From NCBI RefSeq assembly GCF_026339935.1, contig NZ_JAPEPX010000001.1, positions 1,346,501 to 1,410,500 of the forward strand: a stretch of DNA of 64,000 bases. Direction: 5' to 3'. Below, piece after piece: positions 21,115 to 50,360 of this stretch. The DNA is from Streptomyces sp. NBC_01551. Lineage in GTDB: Bacteria > Actinomycetota > Actinomycetes > Streptomycetales > Streptomycetaceae. Made by a program: the position numbers and the translations under genes. Each line of letters starts with the position of its first letter. Positions within the stretch are counted from its first letter, which is position 1. The notes under the pieces are model-generated. The model worked only from the letters and a program-made list of their open reading frames with translations, was not told where the DNA came from and did no database searches.

Positions 21115-21768
21115 ATGACGTACAGCGGAGCGGTCAAGGTCGGCGGTCCGGCCGACGTGCACGAACTCCCGGACCTGATGATTTCCAAGGTCGCGGTGGG
21201 CCCCATGAACAACAACGCGTACCTGCTGCGCTGCCGGGCCACCGACGAGCAGCTGCTGATCGACGCGGCCGCGGAGCCGGAGACCCTGCTGCGGCTCATC
21301 GGTGACGACGGCATCGCGTCGGTCGTCACCACGCACCGGCACGGCGACCACTGGGGCGCGCTCGCGGACGTCGTCGGGGCGACCGGCGCGCGCACCTACG
21401 CGGGCGCCCACGACGCCGAGGGCATCCCGGTGGCGACCGACGTCCTCGTCGCCGACGGGGACACGGTCACGGTCGGACGGGTCACCCTGACCGCCCGCCA
21501 CCTGGTCGGCCACACCCCGGGCTCGATCGCCCTGATCTACGACGACCCGCACGGGCACCCGCACGTGTTCACCGGCGACTGCCTCTTCCCGGGCGGTCCT
21601 GGCCGGACCACACAGCCGGAGGAGTTCAACAGCCTCATGGACGGCCTGGAGGCCAAGCTGTTCGGTGTCCTCCCGGATGAGACGTGGGTCTATCCGGGCC
21701 ACGGCAACGACACCACGCTTGGCGCCGAGCGCCCCCACCTGGCGGAGTGGCGCGCCCGCGGCTGGTGA
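21115..21768 (+). CDS. Metallo-beta-lactamase-fold hydrolase, 3' end supplied by the integrated element
   Basis: A 217-residue glyoxalase II-like hydrolase. TTHRHGDHWGAL gives the HxHxDH zinc motif, HTPGS the next ligand, TGDCLF the bridging Asp, and YPGHGNDTT the final His. Codons up to about 21,596 are host sequence. The rest, about 57 residues, lies inside the left end of the integrated element and replaces the original 3' end, which survives at 48,698-48,883 with the same DETWVYPGHG and TTLGAERPHLAEW. The chimera is in frame and keeps all metal ligands, so it should be active. Confidence 0.92.
   Translation: MTYSGAVKVGGPADVHELPDLMISKVAVGPMNNNAYLLRCRATDEQLLIDAAAEPETLLRLIGDDGIASVVTTHRHGDHWGALADVVGATGARTYAGAHDAEGIPVATDVLVADGDTVTVGRVTLTARHLVGHTPGSIALIYDDPHGHPHVFTGDCLFPGGPGRTTQPEEFNSLMDGLEAKLFGVLPDETWVYPGHGNDTTLGAERPHLAEWRARGW
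21585..21601. other. attL (left attachment site)
   Basis: The core CTTCCCGGGCGG (21585-21596) is shared with the right end. The element-side arm GGTCCTG (21595-21601) is the reverse complement of CAGGACC beside the right core. The site lies in the codons for LFPGG of the hydrolase. Confidence 0.8.
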
Positions 21769-25114: not shown

Positions 25115-25219
25115 GTCACCGGTACCGTGATGGCGCGGGCACTGCCAGAGCGTCGAGGGAGACGCGGACGACTCCATTCCGGCCGAGCGTCGTCGCATTC
25201 GCGCCGCAGGTCGTGAAGG

Positions 25220-25431
25220 GTCCGCCCCGTGCGGGCGGGGCCAGCCCTCCGGTGTCAGCTTCTGACACGGCTCGCGCGATGTCCGCCCCGTGCGGGCGGG
25301 GCCAGCCCTGCGCTTGAAGACTTCGTTACGGCCGTTACGAAGTCCGCCCCGTGCGGGCGGGGCCAGCCGAAAAGTGCAACGGTGCTTTTCGGAAGGGCCT
25401 CGGTCCGCCCCACATGGACCCCCGCCGCGCC
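25220..25431 (+). CRISPR. Short 61-bp-period repeat array (orphan type I-E-like mini-CRISPR, or new structured locus)
   Basis: Repeats of 29 bp start at 25220, 25281 and 25342, exactly 61 bp apart. The first two are identical and the third differs in the last two bases. A fourth, degenerate copy starts on register at 25403 (first 9 bases kept). The repeat core GCCCCGTGCGGGCGGGGC forms a hairpin whose position matches the E. coli type I-E repeat (CCCC at 6-9, GGGG at 18-21). Spacers are 32 bp, the I-E size. Each spacer contains its own dyad: 25252-25268, 25321-25342 and 25369-25390. No cas genes are in the window. Degeneration at the right end implies a leader on the left. Confidence 0.55.
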
Positions 25432-25447
25432 TCCGCGTCGGGGGTCC
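25416..25447 (+). terminator. Hairpin closing the repeat array
   Basis: GGACCCCCG (25416-25424) pairs perfectly with CGGGGGTCC (25439-25447). It begins inside the degenerate fourth repeat, so an RNA transcribed rightward through the array would end here. Confidence 0.6.
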
Positions 25448-31781: not shown

Positions 31782-33992
31782 CTACGAGTTCTTGCGGTAG
31801 ACGCCGGGCTTGACGCGCTCGATGGCGCCGGCCTTCACGAGGACGGTCAGGACGTTCGACAGCGTCTTCTCGTTGATGCCGGTCAGGGTGCGGATGTCGT
31901 CCTTGGTGACCTCCAGCCCGAGCATGGTGTCCATGTAGGCCAGGACCGCGGCGTCTGCGCCCGCGTCGGCCTGTGCCTTGGTGAACCCGCCGCCGGCCGG
32001 AGGCGCGTAGTCCCCGCCCCAGCCCGAGCCGCCTCCGGACGGGCCGTCGCCGTCGCCGGGCATCAGGGACGTCTCGGCGACCGTGTGCCGCTCGTCCCAC
32101 CCCGGCCAGTCCTTCGGCCAGGTGATGAGTCCGGGGCTGACGTAGGGGGCGGCGGACTCCAGGATCCAGCTGCGCATCATCTGGACGGGCTCGCCGGGCG
32201 AGCCGACGTAGCCGAGGCCGTACGTCCTCTTGGGGTCGTTCAGCGGGATGTCGTCCGACCACACGAGGGGTTCGTCCTCGGCGGACCAGGCGGCCGGGAT
32301 GGCGCCGGGGTCGATGCCCTCGAAGCCGTCCACGGTGACCAGGTTCGACTGGGCGGAGTCGGTGCGGAGCATGACCATGGCGCCGCCCTGGATCACGTTG
32401 GTCCGCAGGGCCGTGGACCCGCCGAGCTTGTCGGCGTTGACGGCCTGGTTCACGATCAGCAGCGTCATCCCGAGGTTCCGGCCGAGCGCGGCGATCTTGT
32501 CCAGGATGAACACCGCCTCCTTGCCCTCCTCGGTGGACGAGTCGGTGATCATGTGGGTCTCGTCCACGATGACCATGACCCACGGGCAGTCCGGGGTGGC
32601 TTTGAAGTTCTTCCGGCCGAGGCGCGCGGACTCCGCTACGCGGTACTGGAGCAGGGCGTACGCGACGCGCAACGCCTTGATGGAGCCGGGGCCGGTCGCC
32701 GAGTACGCGGCCATGTCCGCAACGTCGGGGTTGCTGGATCCCTTCGGGTCGGCGTAGATGATCGCCGTCCCCGCCAAGTGAGCGGCGAGCGCGATGATCT
32801 GGACGACGCCGCCCTTGCCGGACCCGGTGACCCCGGCAATGAACACGTGCTGTGCGCCGAGCTTGGGGTCGAAGAGCTGGAGGCGGGCGACCCGCCCGGA
32901 GATGCCGCGGCCGATAGCGATGTATCCGCCAGGCGAGGGCTCCAGGGCCTGCGGGCCGGGGAAGGGCACCCCGTCCTCCAGCGGGTTCCGGTCCATGATG
33001 CGGATCTTGCCCCGGCGCGGGTCGGACGCGTGAGGCTGGTAGTCGACCAGGGTCATGCTGCTGCGGAGGGCGCCGACCAGCTGCTTGCGGTCGGGGACGG
33101 GGAGGGAGGGCGTGTCATCGTCGGCGACGACCCACGCGACCCACCCGCCGGTCGCCGGGTCGACCTGGGCGTCCTTGAGGTGGGTACCCGGCATCACCTT
33201 GGGCCGGACCAGCCGGGCCCACATGCCCTCCATGGTGGTCGGGTCGACTTCCGCCGGCGGGGTCCGGCGGACGGTCACGTACTGCTCACCGGGGTGGGCG
33301 CCGGGGGCGAAGGTGACGCACGCGGAGGGGACCCGGTACGCGGAGCCGACGGACTCGGCGGACACGTTGACGGCCTTGCCCTGGGGGGCCTCGATGATGC
33401 CCTCCCACAGGTCGCCGGCGTCGGTCACGCCCACGAGGTGCTGCCCGGGGTGCGCACCGTCCTCGCCCGAGATGTGGTCGGCCCAGATCCGGTAAAGGCC
33501 GCCCGGGCCGGGGAGGTTGCCCGGGGCCGCGCCCGGCTCGGGGGCGGGGACGCGGACCTTACGGGCGGCGAGGGCGGGGCGCAGCTTGTAGGTGAGGCCG
33601 CCCCACACCGACCACCAGGCGGCGGAGACGATGCCGGACACGGTGGCCGGGTCGAGGAACCCGACCATGAGCGCGTCGGCGTACGCGGGGCCGAGGAATG
33701 CCCCGGGCACGACGGCCATGGACGTGAGGAGGCTGGACCCGAGCAGGGTCGCGCGCTGGGCCGTCAGGACGTCGGGGATGCCGGTGGAGTTGACGATGCC
33801 GACGGGGAGGCGGCCTACGTAGTGCGCGGCGAACGCCGCCGACCCGCACACCGTGGCGGCGGCGGTGAGGGCGGCGAGGCCGGGTTCCAGGAGCGGGGCG
33901 AGGGCTCCGAGGGCGGGCGGTGCGATCACCGAGACCAGCGCGGGGACCTGGTCGGCGATGGCGGGGCGGCGGGTCACGGTGATCTCAGACAT
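31782..33992 (-). CDS. FtsK/SpoIIIE-type conjugative DNA translocase (TraB-like)
   Basis: A 736-residue protein that should pump double-stranded DNA between hyphae, the single-protein transfer mode of Streptomyces. The N-terminal 140 residues hold hydrophobic helices for membrane anchoring. The ATPase domain has Walker A GVTGSGKG (387-394) and Walker B VMVIVDE (472-478), plus YADPKGSSNPDV. The C-terminal 45 residues, VTKDDIRTLTGINEKTLSNV and VKAGAIERV, form a winged helix comparable to the gamma/TraB DNA-binding domain. It lies in an operon with the helical protein gene upstream. Confidence 0.85.
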   Translation of the reverse strand: MSEITVTRRPAIADQVPALVSVIAPPALGALAPLLEPGLAALTAAATVCGSAAFAAHYVGRLPVGIVNSTGIPDVLTAQRATLLGSSLLTSMAVVPGAFLGPAYADALMVGFLDPATVSGIVSAAWWSVWGGLTYKLRPALAARKVRVPAPEPGAAPGNLPGPGGLYRIWADHISGEDGAHPGQHLVGVTDAGDLWEGIIEAPQGKAVNVSAESVGSAYRVPSACVTFAPGAHPGEQYVTVRRTPPAEVDPTTMEGMWARLVRPKVMPGTHLKDAQVDPATGGWVAWVVADDDTPSLPVPDRKQLVGALRSSMTLVDYQPHASDPRRGKIRIMDRNPLEDGVPFPGPQALEPSPGGYIAIGRGISGRVARLQLFDPKLGAQHVFIAGVTGSGKGGVVQIIALAAHLAGTAIIYADPKGSSNPDVADMAAYSATGPGSIKALRVAYALLQYRVAESARLGRKNFKATPDCPWVMVIVDETHMITDSSTEEGKEAVFILDKIAALGRNLGMTLLIVNQAVNADKLGGSTALRTNVIQGGAMVMLRTDSAQSNLVTVDGFEGIDPGAIPAAWSAEDEPLVWSDDIPLNDPKRTYGLGYVGSPGEPVQMMRSWILESAAPYVSPGLITWPKDWPGWDERHTVAETSLMPGDGDGPSGGGSGWGGDYAPPAGGGFTKAQADAGADAAVLAYMDTMLGLEVTKDDIRTLTGINEKTLSNVLTVLVKAGAIERVKPGVYRKNS

Positions 33993-40767: not shown

Positions 40768-41270
40768 GCCGCCACGTCCACGTCAGCGCCGGTGACGGCC
40801 GCAACCGGGAGGTCGACGGGGGCCGGGACCGTCACCGGGGCGATGTCCGTCACGCGGAGGCTCGCCGCGACCTCCTTCATGGGCACCTCGCCGAGCCCGT
40901 GCCGCTTGTACGTGGCGCGGATCGCGTCGAGGTCCGGAGTCTGACGGGTTGACACGACCCGCTCGATCAGCCAGCGGCCGCCGTACAGGCCGGCGGGGAG
41001 TCGGGAGATCAGCTTCTTCGCGGCCCTCTTGTTCCGCTCCGCGGCGCGGGCCTGGTCGGCCGCCTTCGCGTAGGCGGCGGCGGAGGCGCTGATCTCCTCC
41101 TCGGTGGGGACCTCGTCGGCGTTGAACACGTCGGCCGGGTCCGGGGCGAGGAGGTCACGGTCATCGGTGCCGCCGGTGAGGGCGGTCACGGTGCCGGACA
41201 CGACACCGGTGACGGTGCCGGTGACTGCGGCGGTGGCGATGCGGGCGAGCTGGAGAGCGGTACGGAACAT
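40764..41270 (-). CDS. Hypothetical protein with N-terminal membrane-like segment
   Basis: A 168-residue protein. The first 35 residues are a Val/Thr/Ala-rich hydrophobic stretch (ALQLARIATAAVTGTVTGVV), then an acidic region and a basic helix (KAADQARAAERNKRAAKKLI). A compact domain follows (WLIERVVSTRQTPDLDAIRA). It is the first gene left of the GntR regulator and diverges from it over 531 bp. Function unknown. Confidence 0.55.
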   Translation of the reverse strand: MFRTALQLARIATAAVTGTVTGVVSGTVTALTGGTDDRDLLAPDPADVFNADEVPTEEEISASAAAYAKAADQARAAERNKRAAKKLISRLPAGLYGGRWLIERVVSTRQTPDLDAIRATYKRHGLGEVPMKEVAASLRVTDIAPVTVPAPVDLPVAAVTGADVDVAA

Positions 41271-41315
41271 TCGGGCCTCCGTGCTGTGCGGTTGCTCTGT
41301 GCCTGGTGCGTGCGA

Positions 41316-41350
41316 AGGCCCCGGGCCGTTGGTAGCGGCGTCCGGGGCCT
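41316..41350. terminator. Hairpin with GTTGGTAGCG loop in the divergent region
   Basis: AGGCCCCGG (41316-41324) pairs with CCGGGGCCT (41342-41350), loop containing GTTGGTAGCG (41328-41337). It lies in the 5' region of the leftward gene, so it may be an attenuator. Confidence 0.5.
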
Positions 41351-41370
41351 GGTGGCCGAGGGGCCGACGA

Positions 41371-41402
41371 CCGGCACCCCCGCGTCATGTCGGGGGTGCC
41401 GG
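41371..41402. terminator. Second hairpin in the divergent region
   Basis: CCGGCACCCCCG (41371-41382) pairs perfectly with CGGGGGTGCCGG (41391-41402), loop CGTCATGT. It would lie in the leader of the leftward message. Confidence 0.6.
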
Positions 41403-41629
41403 AGGTCGACGGCTCGGAGCCGTCAGCAAAGGTTGAGATGCGATGTTCGCCTCACCACCCGAGGGCGGTGGGGCCGGCTTGTCGCCGGTGCCGTTTCTCG
41501 TGCACGCCGTCCCCCCTACTGGCTGGCTGGGGCTGCACGCATATCCAGTTCTCAAGTACCGCCGGGCGCTCTCTTTCGGCGTGATCCGTGCGTGGTCCTC
41601 CGCGCGGTGCCGTCCGGGCCGTGACGTGC

Positions 41630-41759
41630 AGTCAAGTCGCCTTGGGAGCGGCTTGACTGATGGACCGTCAATGACCAAGGTAGGGGCTCCAACACGGAGA
41701 GTCAAGTCTCTTGCTAACTGTCTTGAGTCTCGTCAAGATGGAAGCTGCACCGGCTTGAC
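41630..41759. promoter_or_regulatory. Cluster of CAAG/CTTG operator half-sites upstream of the GntR gene
   Basis: The 531-bp gap 41271-41801 has no credible gene. Near the GntR gene it holds AGTCAAG (41630-41636) facing CTTGACT (41652-41658), GAGTCAAG (41699-41706) facing CTTGAGTC (41722-41729), GTCAAG (41732-41737) and CTTGAC (41754-41759). These A+T-richer, repeated half-sites fit autoregulation by the GntR protein and control of the divergent operon. Confidence 0.6.
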
Positions 41760-41801: not shown

Positions 41802-42572
41802 ATGAGTGAGAGTCAGCGGCCGACCACGAACGGGATCGCGGCCGCGATCCGGGAAGGGATCAGCGCCGGCCGCTACCCGTACGGGAGCAGGCTGCCGAGC
41901 GTGAAGGACGGGGCGGCCGAGTGGGGTTGCTCGCAGCAGACCGTTGCGTCGGCGTACTCGCAGCTCCAGGGGCTCGGCCTGGTCCGCATCGACCGAGGTA
42001 ACGGCACGATCGTGACGGCCGGCCGTCAGGCTGACGCCCACCTGGGCACCTACTCGCCTCCGCACCTCGCCGAGGCGGTGCCGTGGAAGGCGACCGGCGG
42101 CGGCGTCGAGACCTCGGAGACCACCCTGGTTCGTCAGCTGACGGCCACGAAGGTGATGACCGCGTGGGGCATCCCGGACGGGGAGGACGTGATCGAGCGG
42201 ACGCGGATCCGTCGGCTCGACGGCGTGCCGGTGCAGCACAAGCTGACGGTGATCCCGTACGCGCTGGCGTCGCGCATGCCGGAGGGTCACCAGGGCACGC
42301 CGCCGATGATGACTCCGGTCGGCGCGCCGGACATCACGCCCCCGGAGGGGGTCCGCGTCGCGGACTGGCTCGGGTGGGAGGTGATCGGTACGCAGTGCGC
42401 GATCACGGCGGAGCCGATGGACGCGGCCGCCGCCGAGGCCCTCGGCGTCCCGGAGGGCACGCCCGGGTTCCGGGTGGTCGCCATCGCGAGGGACTCTGAG
42501 AACCGCGTCGTGTCCGCGACGGTGACGACCGCTCCCCTGCACCACCGGATCACGCTCGACATCATCGGGTGA
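41802..42572 (+). CDS. GntR-family regulator (UTRA domain), KorSA-like
   Basis: A 256-residue repressor. The N-terminal winged helix has GIAAAIREGISAGRYPYGSR and DGAAEWGCSQQTVASAYSQL; the UTRA ligand domain (about 110-256) contains TRIRRLDGVPVQHKLTVIPY and ends LHHRITLDIIG. GGAAGGA is a good ribosome site. In pSAM2-type elements such regulators (KorSA) hold transfer and replication genes silent. The CAAG/CTTG sites upstream are probable targets. It is one of the few rightward genes in the element. Confidence 0.8.
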   Translation: MSESQRPTTNGIAAAIREGISAGRYPYGSRLPSVKDGAAEWGCSQQTVASAYSQLQGLGLVRIDRGNGTIVTAGRQADAHLGTYSPPHLAEAVPWKATGGGVETSETTLVRQLTATKVMTAWGIPDGEDVIERTRIRRLDGVPVQHKLTVIPYALASRMPEGHQGTPPMMTPVGAPDITPPEGVRVADWLGWEVIGTQCAITAEPMDAAAAEALGVPEGTPGFRVVAIARDSENRVVSATVTTAPLHHRITLDIIG

Positions 42573-44125: not shown

Positions 44126-45736
44126 CTAGAACGGGGCGTCGACCAGGACGGCGGCGGCCCTGCGCTCCATCTCCGCGTCGATCCGGCACCGGAGGCACAG
44201 GCCGAGGACGGTCCCGGGCTGCGCCCGGCCGTCGCACGGTTCACCCCTGCGGCCGGGGCACTTGCCGTCATCGGTCGGCGGCGCGGTGACTCCGGCGGCG
44301 GCCCATGCCGCCGCGCAGGTGTCGCACATCTCGCCCTCGTCCGGGGCGCGGCGGCCGCAACCGGTAGCGCAGTCCGGCAGCTCGGCGCAGTCCTCGCACA
44401 GGTCGAACCCGGGGATGGGCTCACGGGAGCACACGGTGCACTCGTAGTGCACGCGGTGGTTCTTGGCTTCCTCGACGGTGCGGCCGGCCACGGCGGTGCT
44501 GGAGTGGTCGACGGGGCTGTACTCCTCCGCCCGGGCCTGTGCCGGGACGGGGCCCCACGTGGCCGTGGGCGACGGCGGCGGGTTCTTCGCGGCCTCCTTG
44601 AGACGGGCGGAGACGATCGCGCCGACGGTGCGGGTCAGCGGTTCCGGGAGCGGCCGCCCCACGATGACCTGACGGAGGGTCGACTCCTTCCAGCCGATGG
44701 CGAGCATGCCGGTCACCATCCGGCCCTGATCGGTAAAGGTCTTGCCGGTCAGGAGGAACTCCGGGTGCCATGCGCCGATCTCCCGGAGCAGCCGCTCCCC
44801 GGGGGTGTCCGACGCCGGCGGGCTGTCAGCGGCCGGACCTCCGCCCGGGGTGGCCTCCGCTGCTGCTGCGCTGTTGTCCGGCGCGGCGTCAGCCGCCGCC
44901 GGTCCCCGGAGGCCGGCCTGCGGCTGCTCGGGCACCTGCTCCTCCTCGACCTCGCCGCCTCCGTCCGTCCGTCCATCCGTGTCGTTCGCGCGCACGCCAC
45001 TACCTACAGATACGGACGGACGGACGGGGGGCTCGTTCTCGGATGGTGACTGAGAGGGTCCCTCGGAAGGTGACTCAGAAGGTTGTGGGACTTCAAGTCC
45101 CCGGGGTGGGGACTTCAAGTCCCCGGGGGTAGGGACTTCAAGTCCGGGGGGTGGGGATTTGAAGTCTCTGGGGGTGGGGATTTGAAGTCCCTGGGGGTGG
45201 GGACTTGAAGTCCCCGGGGTGGCGCCCTCGGTGTCCGTTTCGCCCTGGGGACTCGAAGTTCCTGGGGCGGCGGCCGGTGCGGTGCTCGCGGCCTTCCTCG
45301 GGCGCTTTGAGCCCTTGTCCACCCGGGCCTTCTTCGGCGGCGCGGGCGCCAGCGGAGGCCTGTTCTCCGGCGTGATCGGCGGCCGGCCGAGGTTCGCCCG
45401 CTGCTCGTTGATGCTCTTCAACTGTTCCGCGCTCCACCACTCAGCGGGGATCATCACCTCCCAGATGACGGGCCGCATCTCCTCGTGGATCCTCAGCCAC
45501 ACCGCCGACTGGTGCGAGGTCTGGCGGCGCAGGATGCCGCGCGACTCCATCGCGCGGCACTTGACCCCGGCCGTCTTCTTGTCGATCCGGGCGGCGTTGC
45601 CGAGGGTGGTGTACGACCGGAAGCAGTTCATTCCGTCGAAGTCGCCTTTGACGACGAGGGCCACCAGGACAGCGCGCTCCTCGGCGTCGGCGATGGGGGC
45701 GTGGTCGATGGCCCACAGGACCGGGTACAGGCTCAT
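44126..45736 (-). CDS. Replication-initiator-type helix-turn-helix protein containing iterons
   Basis: A 536-residue protein. Residues 1-110 form a winged-helix domain (MSLYPVLWAIDHAPIADAEE, ARIDKKTAGVKCRAMESRGI) similar to plasmid and phage replication initiators. The middle (about 160-230) is a repetitive GLEVPTPGDLKSPP stretch encoded by 22-23-bp DNA repeats. Another helical domain follows (LAIGWKESTLRQVIVGRPLP), then a C-terminal Cys-rich region with four Cys pairs (CTVCSREPIPGFDLCEDCAE and CLRCR). ATG overlaps the upstream gene (45733-45736). A replication role is inferred from domain shape and the iterons. Confidence 0.65.
   Translation of the reverse strand: MSLYPVLWAIDHAPIADAEERAVLVALVVKGDFDGMNCFRSYTTLGNAARIDKKTAGVKCRAMESRGILRRQTSHQSAVWLRIHEEMRPVIWEVMIPAEWWSAEQLKSINEQRANLGRPPITPENRPPLAPAPPKKARVDKGSKRPRKAASTAPAAAPGTSSPQGETDTEGATPGTSSPHPQGLQIPTPRDFKSPPPGLEVPTPGDLKSPPRGLEVPQPSESPSEGPSQSPSENEPPVRPSVSVGSGVRANDTDGRTDGGGEVEEEQVPEQPQAGLRGPAAADAAPDNSAAAAEATPGGGPAADSPPASDTPGERLLREIGAWHPEFLLTGKTFTDQGRMVTGMLAIGWKESTLRQVIVGRPLPEPLTRTVGAIVSARLKEAAKNPPPSPTATWGPVPAQARAEEYSPVDHSSTAVAGRTVEEAKNHRVHYECTVCSREPIPGFDLCEDCAELPDCATGCGRRAPDEGEMCDTCAAAWAAAGVTAPPTDDGKCPGRRGEPCDGRAQPGTVLGLCLRCRIDAEMERRAAAVLVDAPF
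45089..45260. repeat. Seven iteron-like repeats (candidate replication origin)
   Basis: The near-palindrome GACTTSAAGTC (or GATTTGAAGTC) starts at 45089, 45111, 45134, 45156, 45179, 45202 and, more diverged, 45250. Steps are 22, 23, 22, 23, 23 and 48 bp, about two helical turns, each followed by a C/G run. The spacing is not a multiple of three, so DNA conservation rather than protein is selected. It lies inside the replication-type gene. Confidence 0.75.
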
Positions 45737-45930
45737 CGGGCACCCCCGGCAGCCAGGAGGCCAGCGTGCGCGGCTGCGGGACGGGGAGCGGGCAGGGACG
45801 GCATCATGGCCTCCGTGGTGAGGCCGCCCGGCGTGCTCGCGGCACAGTGCCGGGCGGTGTGCGTACCGGCGGCCCAGAACCAGCCCGGGTAGTTGGCGCG
45901 GGCTGCGGGGCCCGCTAGGGTGTGGCGCAT
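45733..45930 (-). CDS. Small hypothetical protein upstream of the replication-type gene
   Basis: A 65-residue frame, MRHTLAGPAARANYPGWFWA, with HxxxxCA and a Pro/Ala-rich end. GGAG lies 8 nt before the ATG. Its stop overlaps the start of the replication-type gene (ATGA), so it may be a leader cistron. Function unknown. Confidence 0.45.
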   Translation of the reverse strand: MRHTLAGPAARANYPGWFWAAGTHTARHCAASTPGGLTTEAMMPSLPAPRPAAAHAGLLAAGGAR

Positions 45931-45958
45931 TGCAGGCGCTCCTGAGGAGTGCTGAGAG

Positions 45959-45990
45959 AGGCCCGGCGACTGTGAGAGGGAGCCGGGCCT
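45959..45990. terminator. Hairpin between small genes
   Basis: AGGCCCGGC (45959-45967) pairs with GCCGGGCCT (45982-45990). It lies 20 bp past the stop at 46010, so it may attenuate transcription into the replication gene. Confidence 0.55.
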
Positions 45991-46009
45991 TTCGCATGTC
46001 TGGGGACGG

Positions 46010-47176: not shown

Positions 47177-48679
47177 TCACGACCACTCCAGGTCGATGGT
47201 GGTCTCATCGAACCCCGGACCGCGCCGCGCGACCGGTTGCACCGTCAGGCGCAGCCCGAGGCCGTCCAGGACCCGCCGCTTCTGAGGCACCAGGAGTGCC
47301 TTCCACGCCTCCTCGGATCCAGGCCCCACAAGCCCTTTGAACGCGTCGAGGTCGAAGGCCGGCCGCAACCTGCGCGCCTCGTTCTGCGCGTCCGTGATCT
47401 GCTTCGCCAGCTTCGCCGTGATCCGTCGTAGCTGCTCGCGGGTAATGATCCCGTCCGCGTAGTCGTCCGCCGCCGCCTCCTGCCGGGCCTTCAACCCCTC
47501 CGCCCGTTCCAGGGCCGCCAAAGCCGCCGAGTCGTCACCGCGGAACACGTCAGCCGCCGCAGGCTTCGACAGCAGCTTCACCACCACCGTGCCGACGTAC
47601 CTGTCGAGGGCTTCCTCATTCCGGCCGACGCATCCGCTCGCGTCGCAGACGTACGTCGACTGCTTCCGGCCGCGCGTCGCGTTCCCCTTCAGGGCGACCC
47701 GGAGGACCGACCCGCACGGCCCGCACGTCGCGACCTCGCCCCACGTCAGCAGGTGTTTCCGCGCCCCTGGCAGCTCACGCACGACGGCCCGCTCCGCGAA
47801 CAGGTTCCGGAGCTGCGCGTACTGCTCGTCCGTGATGAGCGCCGGCCATGCCGCTTTGTACTCCACGCCCTGGTGGACGCGGAGCCCCACGTTCGCCGGG
47901 CGCAGCGCGAGCTTCTTGACGCTGGTCTTGTTCCACAGCGACCCGTCAGCGTTCTGTCCGACCGCCCGCCGCTTGAGTCGCATCCCCGCACCGGGCGCCG
48001 GCACCCCGCGCTCGTTCAGGTCGGCCGTGATGCTGATGAGGCTGGCTCCGGACAGCAGGCGGGTGACGATGTCGCGGACGACGGCGGCCTGTTCGGGGTC
48101 CTCGACGTCATGGAACCCGTCGACCTGGCCGCGGGCGTCGTACTCGTACTGGCGCCTCCACCCGTACGCCACGGGCCCGTTCGCCCGGCCCTCCTGTGCG
48201 CGCTCCAGGGCTGCGCGGGCGACGCGTTCCGACTTCACCTCGGACTCGGCGGTGTCGGACTCGCCGAGGTTGGCGAGCTGCGACCGGTCCGACGCCTTCG
48301 CCATGTTGAACAGGCCGCCCGACTCGAACGCCACCCAGCACTTCGCGTGCCTCAGGTCCTCGATGGCCTGCGCCCGCTCGACACGGCGCCGCCAGACGCG
48401 GGACGGGTGGTATCCGACCACGATGACGCGCACCCCCGGCTCTTGAGCGGCCTCGATGGCGTCGGCCATCAGCCGGTCGTACTCGGGGCGCTCCTCCCCC
48501 GAGTGGGCGGAGACGTCGTTCTCGATGTACTCCCCGCCGACCTCCCAATCGTTCTCCTCGGAGAACGTGCGCAGGTCGCTCATCTGCCGGTTGACGCCCC
48601 GTCGCCGGTCGCGCGGGTCCTCGGAGATCCGGGCGTACAGGAAGGCGACGGTACGGCGCGGCAGCGTCTTAGTGTTCAC
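47177..48679 (-). CDS. Large serine integrase
   Basis: A 500-residue serine recombinase that inserts and removes the element. The N-terminal catalytic domain has AFLYARISEDPRD with the nucleophile Ser (about residue 19), NRQ and VVGYHPSRVWRR. The recombinase domain has PVAYGWRRQY and the zinc-ribbon domain CGPCGSVLR with VCDASGC (about 340-370). A long coiled coil (GLKARQEAAADDYADGIITR) follows. The GTG start at 48679 lies 18 bp from the right core. Size and domain order match phiC31-type integrases. Confidence 0.93.
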   Translation of the reverse strand: MNTKTLPRRTVAFLYARISEDPRDRRRGVNRQMSDLRTFSEENDWEVGGEYIENDVSAHSGEERPEYDRLMADAIEAAQEPGVRVIVVGYHPSRVWRRRVERAQAIEDLRHAKCWVAFESGGLFNMAKASDRSQLANLGESDTAESEVKSERVARAALERAQEGRANGPVAYGWRRQYEYDARGQVDGFHDVEDPEQAAVVRDIVTRLLSGASLISITADLNERGVPAPGAGMRLKRRAVGQNADGSLWNKTSVKKLALRPANVGLRVHQGVEYKAAWPALITDEQYAQLRNLFAERAVVRELPGARKHLLTWGEVATCGPCGSVLRVALKGNATRGRKQSTYVCDASGCVGRNEEALDRYVGTVVVKLLSKPAAADVFRGDDSAALAALERAEGLKARQEAAADDYADGIITREQLRRITAKLAKQITDAQNEARRLRPAFDLDAFKGLVGPGSEEAWKALLVPQKRRVLDGLGLRLTVQPVARRGPGFDETTIDLEWS

Positions 48680-48683
48680 GGGA

Positions 48684-48708
48684 CAGGACCCTAGGGCTTC
48701 CCGGGCGG
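48684..48708. other. attR (right attachment site)
   Basis: CAGGACC (48684-48690) lies beside the core CTTCCCGGGCGG (48697-48708). The arm mirrors GGTCCTG at 21595-21601 of attL. To the right the host hydrolase reading frame resumes. Confidence 0.8.
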
Positions 48709-48883
48709 CGTCGGCAACACCTGGGGCGACCCCAAGGCCTTCGAGCGGCTGATCGACGACGTCGAGCAGAAGCTCTTCGAGCGGCTTCCCGACGAGACCT
48801 GGGTCTACCCGGGCCACGGCGACGACACCACGCTCGGCGCCGAGCGGCCGCATCTGGCCGAGTGGCGCGAACGCGGCTGGTAG
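48698..48883 (+). pseudogene. Displaced 3' end of the metallo-beta-lactamase-fold gene
   Basis: From TTC at 48698 the frame reads FPGGVGNTWGDPKAFERLID through DETWVYPGHGDD to the TAG at 48881-48883. It has no start codon or ribosome site. The sequence matches the C-terminus of the restored gene at 21115-21768 with about 60-70 percent of residues the same, and marks where the host gene was cut. It becomes functional again if the element leaves. Confidence 0.9.
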
Positions 48884-48998
48884 GTCCCGGCGGTTCCCGG
48901 TCAACCCATCGGTCAACGCCCTGAAGGGATGAACTCCTTCCGGTCGAGCCTGACCGAACGCACGTCCTGGGGGTGCGGGGCGGGGTAATTGCTGCACC

Positions 48999-50360
48999 AT
49001 GCAACAAGACCCCTCCCTGCCCTCCCCGTCCTCCCCGTCCCGCTCCCCCTCGATGCTGCGGCTCGCCTCGGCCTCCCTCGCCGGCACCGCCATCGAGTTC
49101 TACGACTTCTTCGTCTACGGCACGGCCGCCGCCCTGGTGCTCGGCCCGCTGTTCTTCCCGTCCTTCTCCCCGCTCGCCGGCACCCTCGCCGCCTTCGCGA
49201 CCTTCGGCGTCGGCTTCCTCGCCCGCCCCCTCGGCTCGGCCGTCTTCGGCCACATCGGCGACCGCTACGGACGGCGCCCGGTGCTGCTGGGCTCCCTGCT
49301 GCTCACCGGCCTGGCCACCGTCGCGGTGGGCTGCGTGCCCTCGTACGCCTCGATCGGGGTGGCCGCGCCCCTCCTGCTGCTCCTGCTCCGCTTCCTGCAG
49401 GGGCTCGGCCTCGGCGGCGAATGGGGCGGCGCGGTGCTGCTGACCGCCGAGCACGCCCCCGAGGGCCGGCGCGGGCTGTGGTCCAGCTTCCCGCAGGCCG
49501 GCCCGGCGGTGGGCTTCCTGCTGGCCAACGGGCTGATGCTGGGCCTGTCCGCGTCCCTGACCGACGCGCAGTTCACCGCCTGGGGCTGGCGGGTGCCGTT
49601 CTGGGCCGCCGGACTGCTGGCCCTGGCCGGGCTGTGGCTGCGGCGATCGGTCGAGGAGACCCCCGAGTTCCGGGCGCTCGCCGAGACCGGCCGGCGCGCC
49701 GAGGCACCCCTGGCCGAGGTGGTACGGGGCCACTGGCGGCTGCTCCTGCTGACCGGCGGGGCCCTCGCCGTCGGATACGCCGTCTTCTACGCGGTCACCA
49801 CCTGGTCCCTCGCCTACGCGACCGAGCACCTGCGGGTGGAGCGCACCGTGATGCTCGCCTGCGTCATGGCGGCCGTCGCCCTAAAGGGCCTGGCGACCCC
49901 GCTGATGGCGCTGCTCGGCGACCGCTACGGGCGGCGGCCGGTGTCCCTGGCGGGGTGCACGGCCTGCGCCCTGTGGATGTTCCCCTTCGTGGCGCTGCTG
50001 CGCACGGCGGACCCGCTGCTGATGACGCTGGGCTGCGTCGGGGCGCTGCTGGGCATGGTGGCGATGTTCGCGGTGGTGGGCGCGTACCTCCCGGAGCTGT
50101 ACGCCCCTCGGATCCGCTGTACGGGCGCGGCCGTCGGCTACAACCTCGGCGGGGTGCTGGGCGGGGCGCTGACCCCGATCGTGGCGACGGCGCTGGCGGA
50201 CGGCTCGGGTCCGCCGTGGGGCGTCGCGGTGTACCTGACCGGCGTGGCCCTGGTCAGCCTGGTGTGCTTCGCGCTGCTGCCGGAGACGAACCCGGTGCTG
50301 GTACGGGCGAAGGCGCCGGGCACGGAAACGGGGGCGGCCGAAGCGGCCGCCCCCGCGTAG
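48999..50360 (+). CDS. MFS transporter, metabolite:H+ symporter type
   Basis: A 453-residue protein with 12 expected hydrophobic helices. It has EFYDFFVYG near the start, GHIGDRYGRRPVLL (loop 2-3 signature), GGEWGGA and GDRYGRRPVSL again after the central loop. These match the MHS family (ProP/ShiA/KgtP type). Substrate cannot be told; organic acids or osmolytes are possible. It is the first intact host gene after the element and ends 16 bp from the convergent terC. Confidence 0.85.
   Translation: MQQDPSLPSPSSPSRSPSMLRLASASLAGTAIEFYDFFVYGTAAALVLGPLFFPSFSPLAGTLAAFATFGVGFLARPLGSAVFGHIGDRYGRRPVLLGSLLLTGLATVAVGCVPSYASIGVAAPLLLLLLRFLQGLGLGGEWGGAVLLTAEHAPEGRRGLWSSFPQAGPAVGFLLANGLMLGLSASLTDAQFTAWGWRVPFWAAGLLALAGLWLRRSVEETPEFRALAETGRRAEAPLAEVVRGHWRLLLLTGGALAVGYAVFYAVTTWSLAYATEHLRVERTVMLACVMAAVALKGLATPLMALLGDRYGRRPVSLAGCTACALWMFPFVALLRTADPLLMTLGCVGALLGMVAMFAVVGAYLPELYAPRIRCTGAAVGYNLGGVLGGALTPIVATALADGSGPPWGVAVYLTGVALVSLVCFALLPETNPVLVRAKAPGTETGAAEAAAPA

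Follow-up and report, generated by a model that had tools for sequence, protein, structure and literature searches.

An integrated element of Streptomyces sp. NBC_01551, contained in the 64,000-nt stretch of DNA analyzed here (the window), carries a small repeat array that is, judged by its leader and repeats, a mini-array derived from a type I-E CRISPR. Its spacers contain inverted repeats (dyads). A related element in another genome of the genus (G269) carries a sister array with different spacers that are again dyads, and the mini-array spacers are dyads far more often than the spacers of genuine type I-E arrays. Mobile elements borrow CRISPR parts against rivals or host immunity, and the carrier in this case is a mobile element of a soil bacterium. 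The mini-array, of CRISPR descent, is marked by an unusual spacer property that recurs and is known from two arrays and five spacers. We tentatively favor the explanation that its guides were taken from competing elements, at sites of control that are palindromic. If spacers are indeed selected for palindromy, this would be a new rule for what makes a guide useful: either the control sites of rivals are hard to change, or guides are useful through their inability to guide.

The array lies near the left end of the element (25220–25402). Three perfect repeats of 27 bp (GTCCGCCCCGTGCGGGCGGGGCCAGCC) are spaced by 61 and 61 bp, and a partial fourth copy, on register, retains only the first bases (GTCCGCCCC). 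The initial annotation had described 29-bp repeats at 61-bp steps; the step and the on-register fourth copy were borne out, but the perfect repeat is 27 bp, the base after each copy being C, C, and G. With up to three mismatches allowed, the repeat is present in its own genome (7.05 Mb; GC content of the window, 73%) only at these three array copies. A terminator had been proposed to close the array, and a strong dyad does lie there, but it is without a T run. Neither a sigma-70 type promoter nor a T-tailed terminator was found near the array in a scan that covered this one promoter type. No Rfam family matched the array at gathering scores, and two sub-threshold matches were taken as chance. 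The reported lack of cas genes agrees with our scan, in which 20 of 27 ORFs picked in the element gave zero cas family matches.

Table 1. Features of the mini-array, its neighbor, and the carrier element, in window positions
Feature	Position	Strand	Remark
Leader end, type I-E CRISPR	25202..25219	+	CGCCGCAGGTCGTGAAGG; assigned by likeness to leaders of genuine arrays
Repeat 1	25220..25246	+	27 bp
Spacer w1	25247..25280	+	Dyad GTGTCAG-CTT-CTGACAC at 25252-25268
Repeat 2	25281..25307	+	
Spacer w2	25308..25341	+	Dyad 25319-25344, arms GACTTCGTTACGG/CCGTTACGAAGTC; one T-T pair; 3 bp into repeat 3
Repeat 3	25342..25368	+	
Spacer w3	25369..25402	+	Dyad 25367-25392, CCGAAAAGTGC-AACG-GTGCTTTTCGG; two G-U pairs; 2 bases into the preceding repeat
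Fourth repeat, degenerate, on register	25403..25412	+	TCCGCCCC at 25404
Strong dyad at array end	25416..25447	.	14-nt arms, 93%; without T run
Convergent neighbor gene, 173 aa	25637..26158	-	No family match; also beside the sister array
TraB/FtsK-like transfer ATPase	31782..33992	-	NCBIfam plasmid_TraB and Pfam FtsK, both below curated cut-offs
Putative gntR operator	41632..41656	+	TCAAG-N15-CTTGA
Putative gntR operator	41702..41726	+	TCAAG-N15-CTTGA
Putative gntR operator	41733..41758	+	TCAAG-N16-CTTGA
GntR/UTRA regulator	41802..42572	+	
Tandem palindromes GGGACTTCAAGTCCC	45087..45215	.	In ORF 44126-45997; possible replication iterons (inferred role)
Serine integrase	47177..49093	-	Pfam Resolvase and Recombinase; start probably inside the ORF

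When the array and its flanks were compared with 392 Streptomyces genomes, matches were found in 49, many of them short and elsewhere in the query. The useful matches took in the start of the repeat together with the 18 bases that precede repeat 1, and those in G156, G078, and G037 led to genuine type I-E arrays, the longest of about two dozen units, in genomes that have Cse1. Genuine leaders (GCAGGTC...AAGG) end in CGCCGCAGGTCAAAAAGG or GTGCAGGTCGGGAAGG and are followed directly by GTCCGCCCC, GTCCTCCCC, or GTGCTCTCC. The window junction reads CGCCGCAGGTCGTGAAGG-GTCCGCCCC: its leader end has 15 of 18 bases in common with the G156 and G037 arrays (CGCCGCAGGTCAAAAAGG), its repeat start is that of G156 and G078, and its unit is exactly the 61 bp of these arrays. 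Type I-E arrays are characterized by repeats of 28–29 nt and unique spacers of 32–33 nt in such a unit, and the window array agrees with this layout, its perfect repeat being 27 nt. The window repeat folds into a 7-bp stem with a 4-base loop, whose stem positions are those of the I-E repeat in the host arrays of G269; when folded, the repeat of the G269 mini-array departs from the I-E register. Because an I-E leader end directly precedes repeat 1 and the stem of the window repeat sits at I-E positions, a type I-E origin is indicated, one of the possibilities raised at the outset. The mini-array differs from the Streptomyces I-E arrays in its repeat tail (GCCAGCC, against ATCGACC or ATCAACC), in belonging to an element without cas genes in the scanned ORFs, and in having two to three units with dyad spacers.

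The junction was also met outside arrays. In G258, all 18 of the window's leader bases (18/18) stand before one degenerate repeat and no more, so that leader and repeat form a solo unit (L021/L204; contig C8, near 198212). The leader-repeat pattern had three matches in viral contigs, with a second GTCCGCCCC in none of the three within the stretch inspected. One of these contigs (IMGVR_UViG_2867369537_000002; L192:9577-9598) carries TTGCAGGTCAGAGAGGGTCCGCCCCGC, which resembles a CRISPR leader-repeat junction, and no second repeat is seen in the stretch inspected.

The related element of G269 occupies the same chromosomal site as the window element. By blastn, the two are 91% identical in the integrase region and 84% in the tra region, and their TraB proteins are 88% identical. 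The sister leader ends in GCAGGTCGTACAGG, and the G269 mini-array consists of two full repeats of 28 bases and a degenerate third. Its repeat has 25 of 27 bases in common with that of the window plus one inserted base. There are two units in G269 and three in the window, and the G269 spacers, g1 and g2, have nothing in common with w1–w3. From this one comparison, repeats appear to persist while spacers turn over between sister elements. Since repeats were kept and spacers replaced within a backbone of 84–91% identity, the array shows CRISPR behavior, and this speaks against both an origin and a structured RNA that is fixed. The initial annotation had held that whole units conserved in relatives, variable parts included, would favor an origin or RNA over CRISPR; by this criterion, the G269 element favors CRISPR.

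An inverted repeat had been claimed for every window spacer. All three do contain one, but the third only if G-U pairs are admitted; counting in two repeat bases, w3 then forms an 11-bp stem with two such pairs. The coordinates given for w1 (25252-25268) stand, whereas the other two dyads widen to 25319-25344 and 25367-25392, with the mismatched pairs given in Table 1. By eye, the dyads are off-center within the spacers. Against shuffled sequences, P values were 0.0145 (w1), 0.0047 (w2), and 0.62 (w3) with Watson-Crick pairs only, and 0.074, 0.040, and 0.047 with G-U pairs allowed on the + strand.

Mini-array spacers and controls were scored by a single scheme, the controls being 87 distinct spacers from the arrays of L017, L019, L024, G037, G156, and G269 (41 in the first set). 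With Watson-Crick pairs only, w1, w2, and w3 scored 7, 7.5, and 3.5 and the G269 spacers 11 and 9.5, whereas the 87 genuine spacers averaged 4.33 and reached 7 at most (Mann-Whitney P = 0.004 for the five mini-array spacers). Allowing G-U pairs on the + strand gave 7, 7.5, and 7 for the window and 11 and 11.5 for G269; the genuine spacers then averaged 5.03 and reached 8.5 at most (P = 0.0002). A score of at least 7 was reached by 2/3 window spacers, or 4/5 with the sister array, and by 1/87 genuine spacers when Watson-Crick pairs alone were counted; with G-U the figures were 3/3, 5/5, and 8/87.

Folded array transcripts have a hairpin in all five variable segments. By eye, four of the five non-Watson-Crick pairs in the dyads are G-U on the + strand, and allowing G-U raised the scores of w3 and g2 on that strand only. 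In RNA folding energy, w1–w3 alone were no better than shuffles; among whole window units only unit 3 was (z = −3.4), and both G269 spacers were (z = −3.8 and −4.9). RNA structure alone was dropped as a signal, the folding of w1–w3 being at shuffle level.

No near-exact protospacer was found in the Streptomyces genomes, plasmids, phages, and viral contigs searched. Among the best two candidates per genome in the 392 Streptomyces genomes, whole-spacer matches to the window array were limited to its own array, those of G269 and G037, and one in G304. The G304 match (79% over 60 bases) spans w1 and repeat bases without the w1 dyad and was judged to be chance. The G269 array had matches in 60 of 382 genomes, and among the best two candidates per genome a whole spacer was spanned only by the two arrays; because two candidates were scored per genome, a weak protospacer could hide behind repeat matches. 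The core of g2, searched in 145 genomes with three mismatches, had one match, which was non-palindromic. Plasmids, at E values up to 10, gave weak partial matches in 43 records for w1 and in three each for w2 and w3, and phages gave weak partial matches to w3 in four records. The array with its flanks matched no plasmid or phage, and the sister array had short matches in 29 plasmid records. In viral contigs, the w3 and w2 patterns had no matches, and the 17-base core of w1 had six. An operator-like pattern was too loose for viral contigs (at least 120 matches) and was discarded.

At the level of motifs, palindromic sites resembling the spacers were found in related elements. The gntR promoter of the window element contains TCAAG-N15-CTTGA twice and TCAAG-N16-CTTGA once. 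The N15 motif lies just upstream of gntR in G202 and G038 (GntR 62% and 60% identical), and among 15 plasmid records taken from 82 with a GntR match it was exact in seven, had one mismatch in one, and was absent from seven. From this conservation, we infer that it is a putative GntR operator. Spacer g2 contains TCAAG-N15-CTTGA exactly, and g1 contains it with one mismatch, counting the first repeat base. In dyad-preserving permutations, the exact motif arose in 0.08% of cases for g2 and 0.06% for g1, and with one mismatch allowed in 0.18% and 0.15%; none of the 87 genuine I-E spacers has it. Because the motif was picked out post hoc and g1 and g2 are possibly related to each other, their likeness to gntR operators is suggestive only. 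The operators read GTCAAG at the flank and the G269 spacers ATCAAG and TTCAAG. For the GntR-like gene carried by the G269 element, the promoter shows, by eye, repeats of another kind (AGGTAC).

Spacer w3 resembles one tandem hairpin of the G269 element in 21 of 26 bases, above 60/60 dyad-preserving nulls; by raw identity, nothing in the scanned loci matched w1, w2, g1, or g2 better than the null. In all, three of the five spacers are suggested to resemble palindromic sites of related elements, namely gntR operators and a hairpin array. Targets at palindromic operators, as proposed earlier, are thus suggested by the motif-level likeness of three spacers, but none of the collections searched yielded a near-exact protospacer. 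The hairpins of the G269 element (L060:374-521, minus strand) are three in tandem, CCGAAA-N5-AACG/ATCG-N5-TTTCGG, one with CCGAGA. They are about 60 and 62 bp apart within an FDXHR-type gene, in its 5′ portion, and, by eye, show paired changes between copies. Relatives of this gene encode FDXHR-type zinc-binding proteins of 83–104 aa that align to 42–58% of it, and therefore the hairpin part seems to be extra to the gene. A search of plasmids and phages with the DNA of the hairpins returned nothing.

The host has type I-E components of its own. Two of nine ORFs scanned on contig 2 are cas8e and cas5e, on another contig than the mini-array, and several short, degenerate I-E arrays with another repeat lie near them (for example, CTGCTCCCCGCGCCTGCGGGGATGAGCC). 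These arrays (G000:C2 at 52.7, 69.7–69.9, 72.8, 79.9, and 81.0–81.1 kb) have strongly degenerate, mutually different repeats. The host repeats, with GGGGATGAACC-like tails, are degenerate versions of the G269 host-array repeat (CTGCTCCCCGCGCCTGCGGGGATGAACC, present there in long arrays) and differ from the element repeat, which is nearer to the other I-E group (G156, G078). The initial annotation had advised looking for a host I-E locus with the same repeat, but the host arrays have other repeats; although the host has at least cas8e and cas5e, use of an orphan mini-CRISPR with host I-E Cas proteins is therefore conjectural.

In the explanation we favor, type I-E Cas1-Cas2 would act in trans to insert spacers at the leader junction, and a spacer would be retained if its source is a palindromic control site, such as a regulator operator or a hairpin array, in a related element that may compete for the same hosts and the same integration site. 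The array transcript would be cut by type I-E Cas6, also in trans, and the processed guides would lead Cascade to the control sites of the rival, blocking or destroying it. In favor of targeting are the match of leader and repeat to I-E arrays, the turnover of spacers, the excess of dyads, the operator and hairpin likeness, and the shared chromosomal site. The lack of a near-exact protospacer in the collections searched, the differing host repeats, the G269 repeat outside the I-E register, the differing operator flank, and the half of the plasmid records without the exact motif count against it, as does the expectation that self-pairing would make a guide work badly. It is possible, if somewhat doubtful, that a family of integrative conjugative elements keeps a CRISPR-derived module whose spacers must all be self-complementary, with new spacers taken in but only folding ones kept, whether these act as decoy crRNAs against Cascade or as guides from rival operators. 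In the portions of text that a literature search returned, no guide class defined by self-pairing was met, and none of the papers searched joins palindromic spacers with a CRISPR array.

The main rival explanation, which we consider unlikely, holds that the I-E-like repeats and self-folding segments form an RNA anti-CRISPR, whose units occupy Cas6 or Cascade as decoy crRNAs. A spacer folded on itself would not guide, so that its sequence would be free and its pairing fixed. This would account for the hairpins in every variable segment, for the G-U pairs on the strand of a leader-to-array transcript, for w2 and w3 dyads that run 3 and 2 bp into the repeats, as expected for pairing in place, and for the want of convincing protospacers, and it is consistent with the I-E stem geometry of the window repeat. 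RNA anti-CRISPRs against I-E systems have been reported (PMC10651486), but those described in this source are solitary repeats, whereas the window has three in register with hairpin spacers. Moreover, the element repeat is unlike that of the host, the I-E stem is disrupted in the mini-array repeat of G269, and the folding of w1–w3 on their own is matched by shuffles. Identical repeats beside unrelated spacers suggest spacer insertion, which a decoy does not need. Palindromic spacers could instead stem from biased capture of DNA broken at cruciforms or hairpins, in a decaying orphan CRISPR with no present function, so that the dyads need none. Orphan arrays on plasmids are described as common and shorter (PMC9071438), and the fourth repeat is degenerate. 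This account is still harder to credit, since a bias of this kind is absent from genuine I-E spacers in the genus (1/87), the window array has repeats without any difference among them, the repeats persist in two elements, and the dyads are not centered.

It is also improbable that the CRISPR-derived locus has been co-opted as a cis-acting transfer locus (clt) or as a structured RNA with a regulatory role, to which a protein of the element binds. Of the same-strand 8-mer clusters (at least three copies within 300 bp) that both elements share, only TCCGCCCC, recurring every 61 bp, falls outside the genes called in the window, and TraB is well conserved between the two. The clt loci described for pWTY27, pIJ101, and pJV1 likewise combine direct and inverted repeats on TraB-type elements, that of pWTY27 with CCCGCCC repeats (PMC3583192). 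The pWTY27 clt adjoins traB in that account, whereas the window array lies about 6 kb from the traB end at 31782, has a CRISPR leader, and differs from its sister in unit number and variable parts. The iteron-like palindromes (Table 1) are a better place to seek a replication origin, and a structured RNA is disfavored by the Rfam search. The TGACACC repeats of pWTY27, tried as a guide to a clt, show no enrichment: the window has 5, where 7.2 would be expected.

Viral mini-CRISPR arrays serve inter-virus conflict (PMC11656645; PMC6858448), and those described in the former resemble the window array in having few spacers, a mobile carrier, and no cas genes. They have host-identical repeats and mostly spacers against related viruses, whereas here the repeat differs and no exact target was found in the collections searched. 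The likeness to the RNA anti-CRISPRs termed Racr (PMC10651486) lies in a CRISPR-like repeat on a mobile element.

The carrier is best explained as an integrative conjugative element of the TraB type. By eye, it lies between genes for an MBL-fold protein and an MFS transporter, and it encodes a serine integrase, a TraB/FtsK-like ATPase, a GntR/UTRA regulator, and HTH proteins. The protein encoded next to the array is 39% identical to its G269 counterpart, whose gene has the same convergent placement by the sister array. An AlphaFold2 model had a mean pLDDT of 75, and for the modeled protein no PDB match was found at E ≤ 0.001. It had no family match (one PHROG at E = 0.17) and no relatives that would reveal more sister loci in the genome contigs, viral contigs, plasmids, and phages searched. 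Among 382 genomes of the genus, it was found in its own, in G269 (strong), and in G022 (weak), where no array was found within 20 kb; among 58 relatives of G269, only G269 itself has it. Three further sources have relatives at the protein level: P0002 (Streptomyces sp. NPDC056485, contig of 16 kb), P0003 (contig of 23 kb), and P0005 (S. virginiae, contig of 194 kb). Sequences at the two ends of the element (21581-21766 and 48731-48881) each match the opposite end of the G269 element at 77–79% and are probably diverged copies of the end of the attachment-site gene. Some 350 bp upstream of gntR (41270-41622), including a long dyad (41356-41417), are 82–86% conserved in G269, although the repeats in the promoter, close to the regulator gene, differ.
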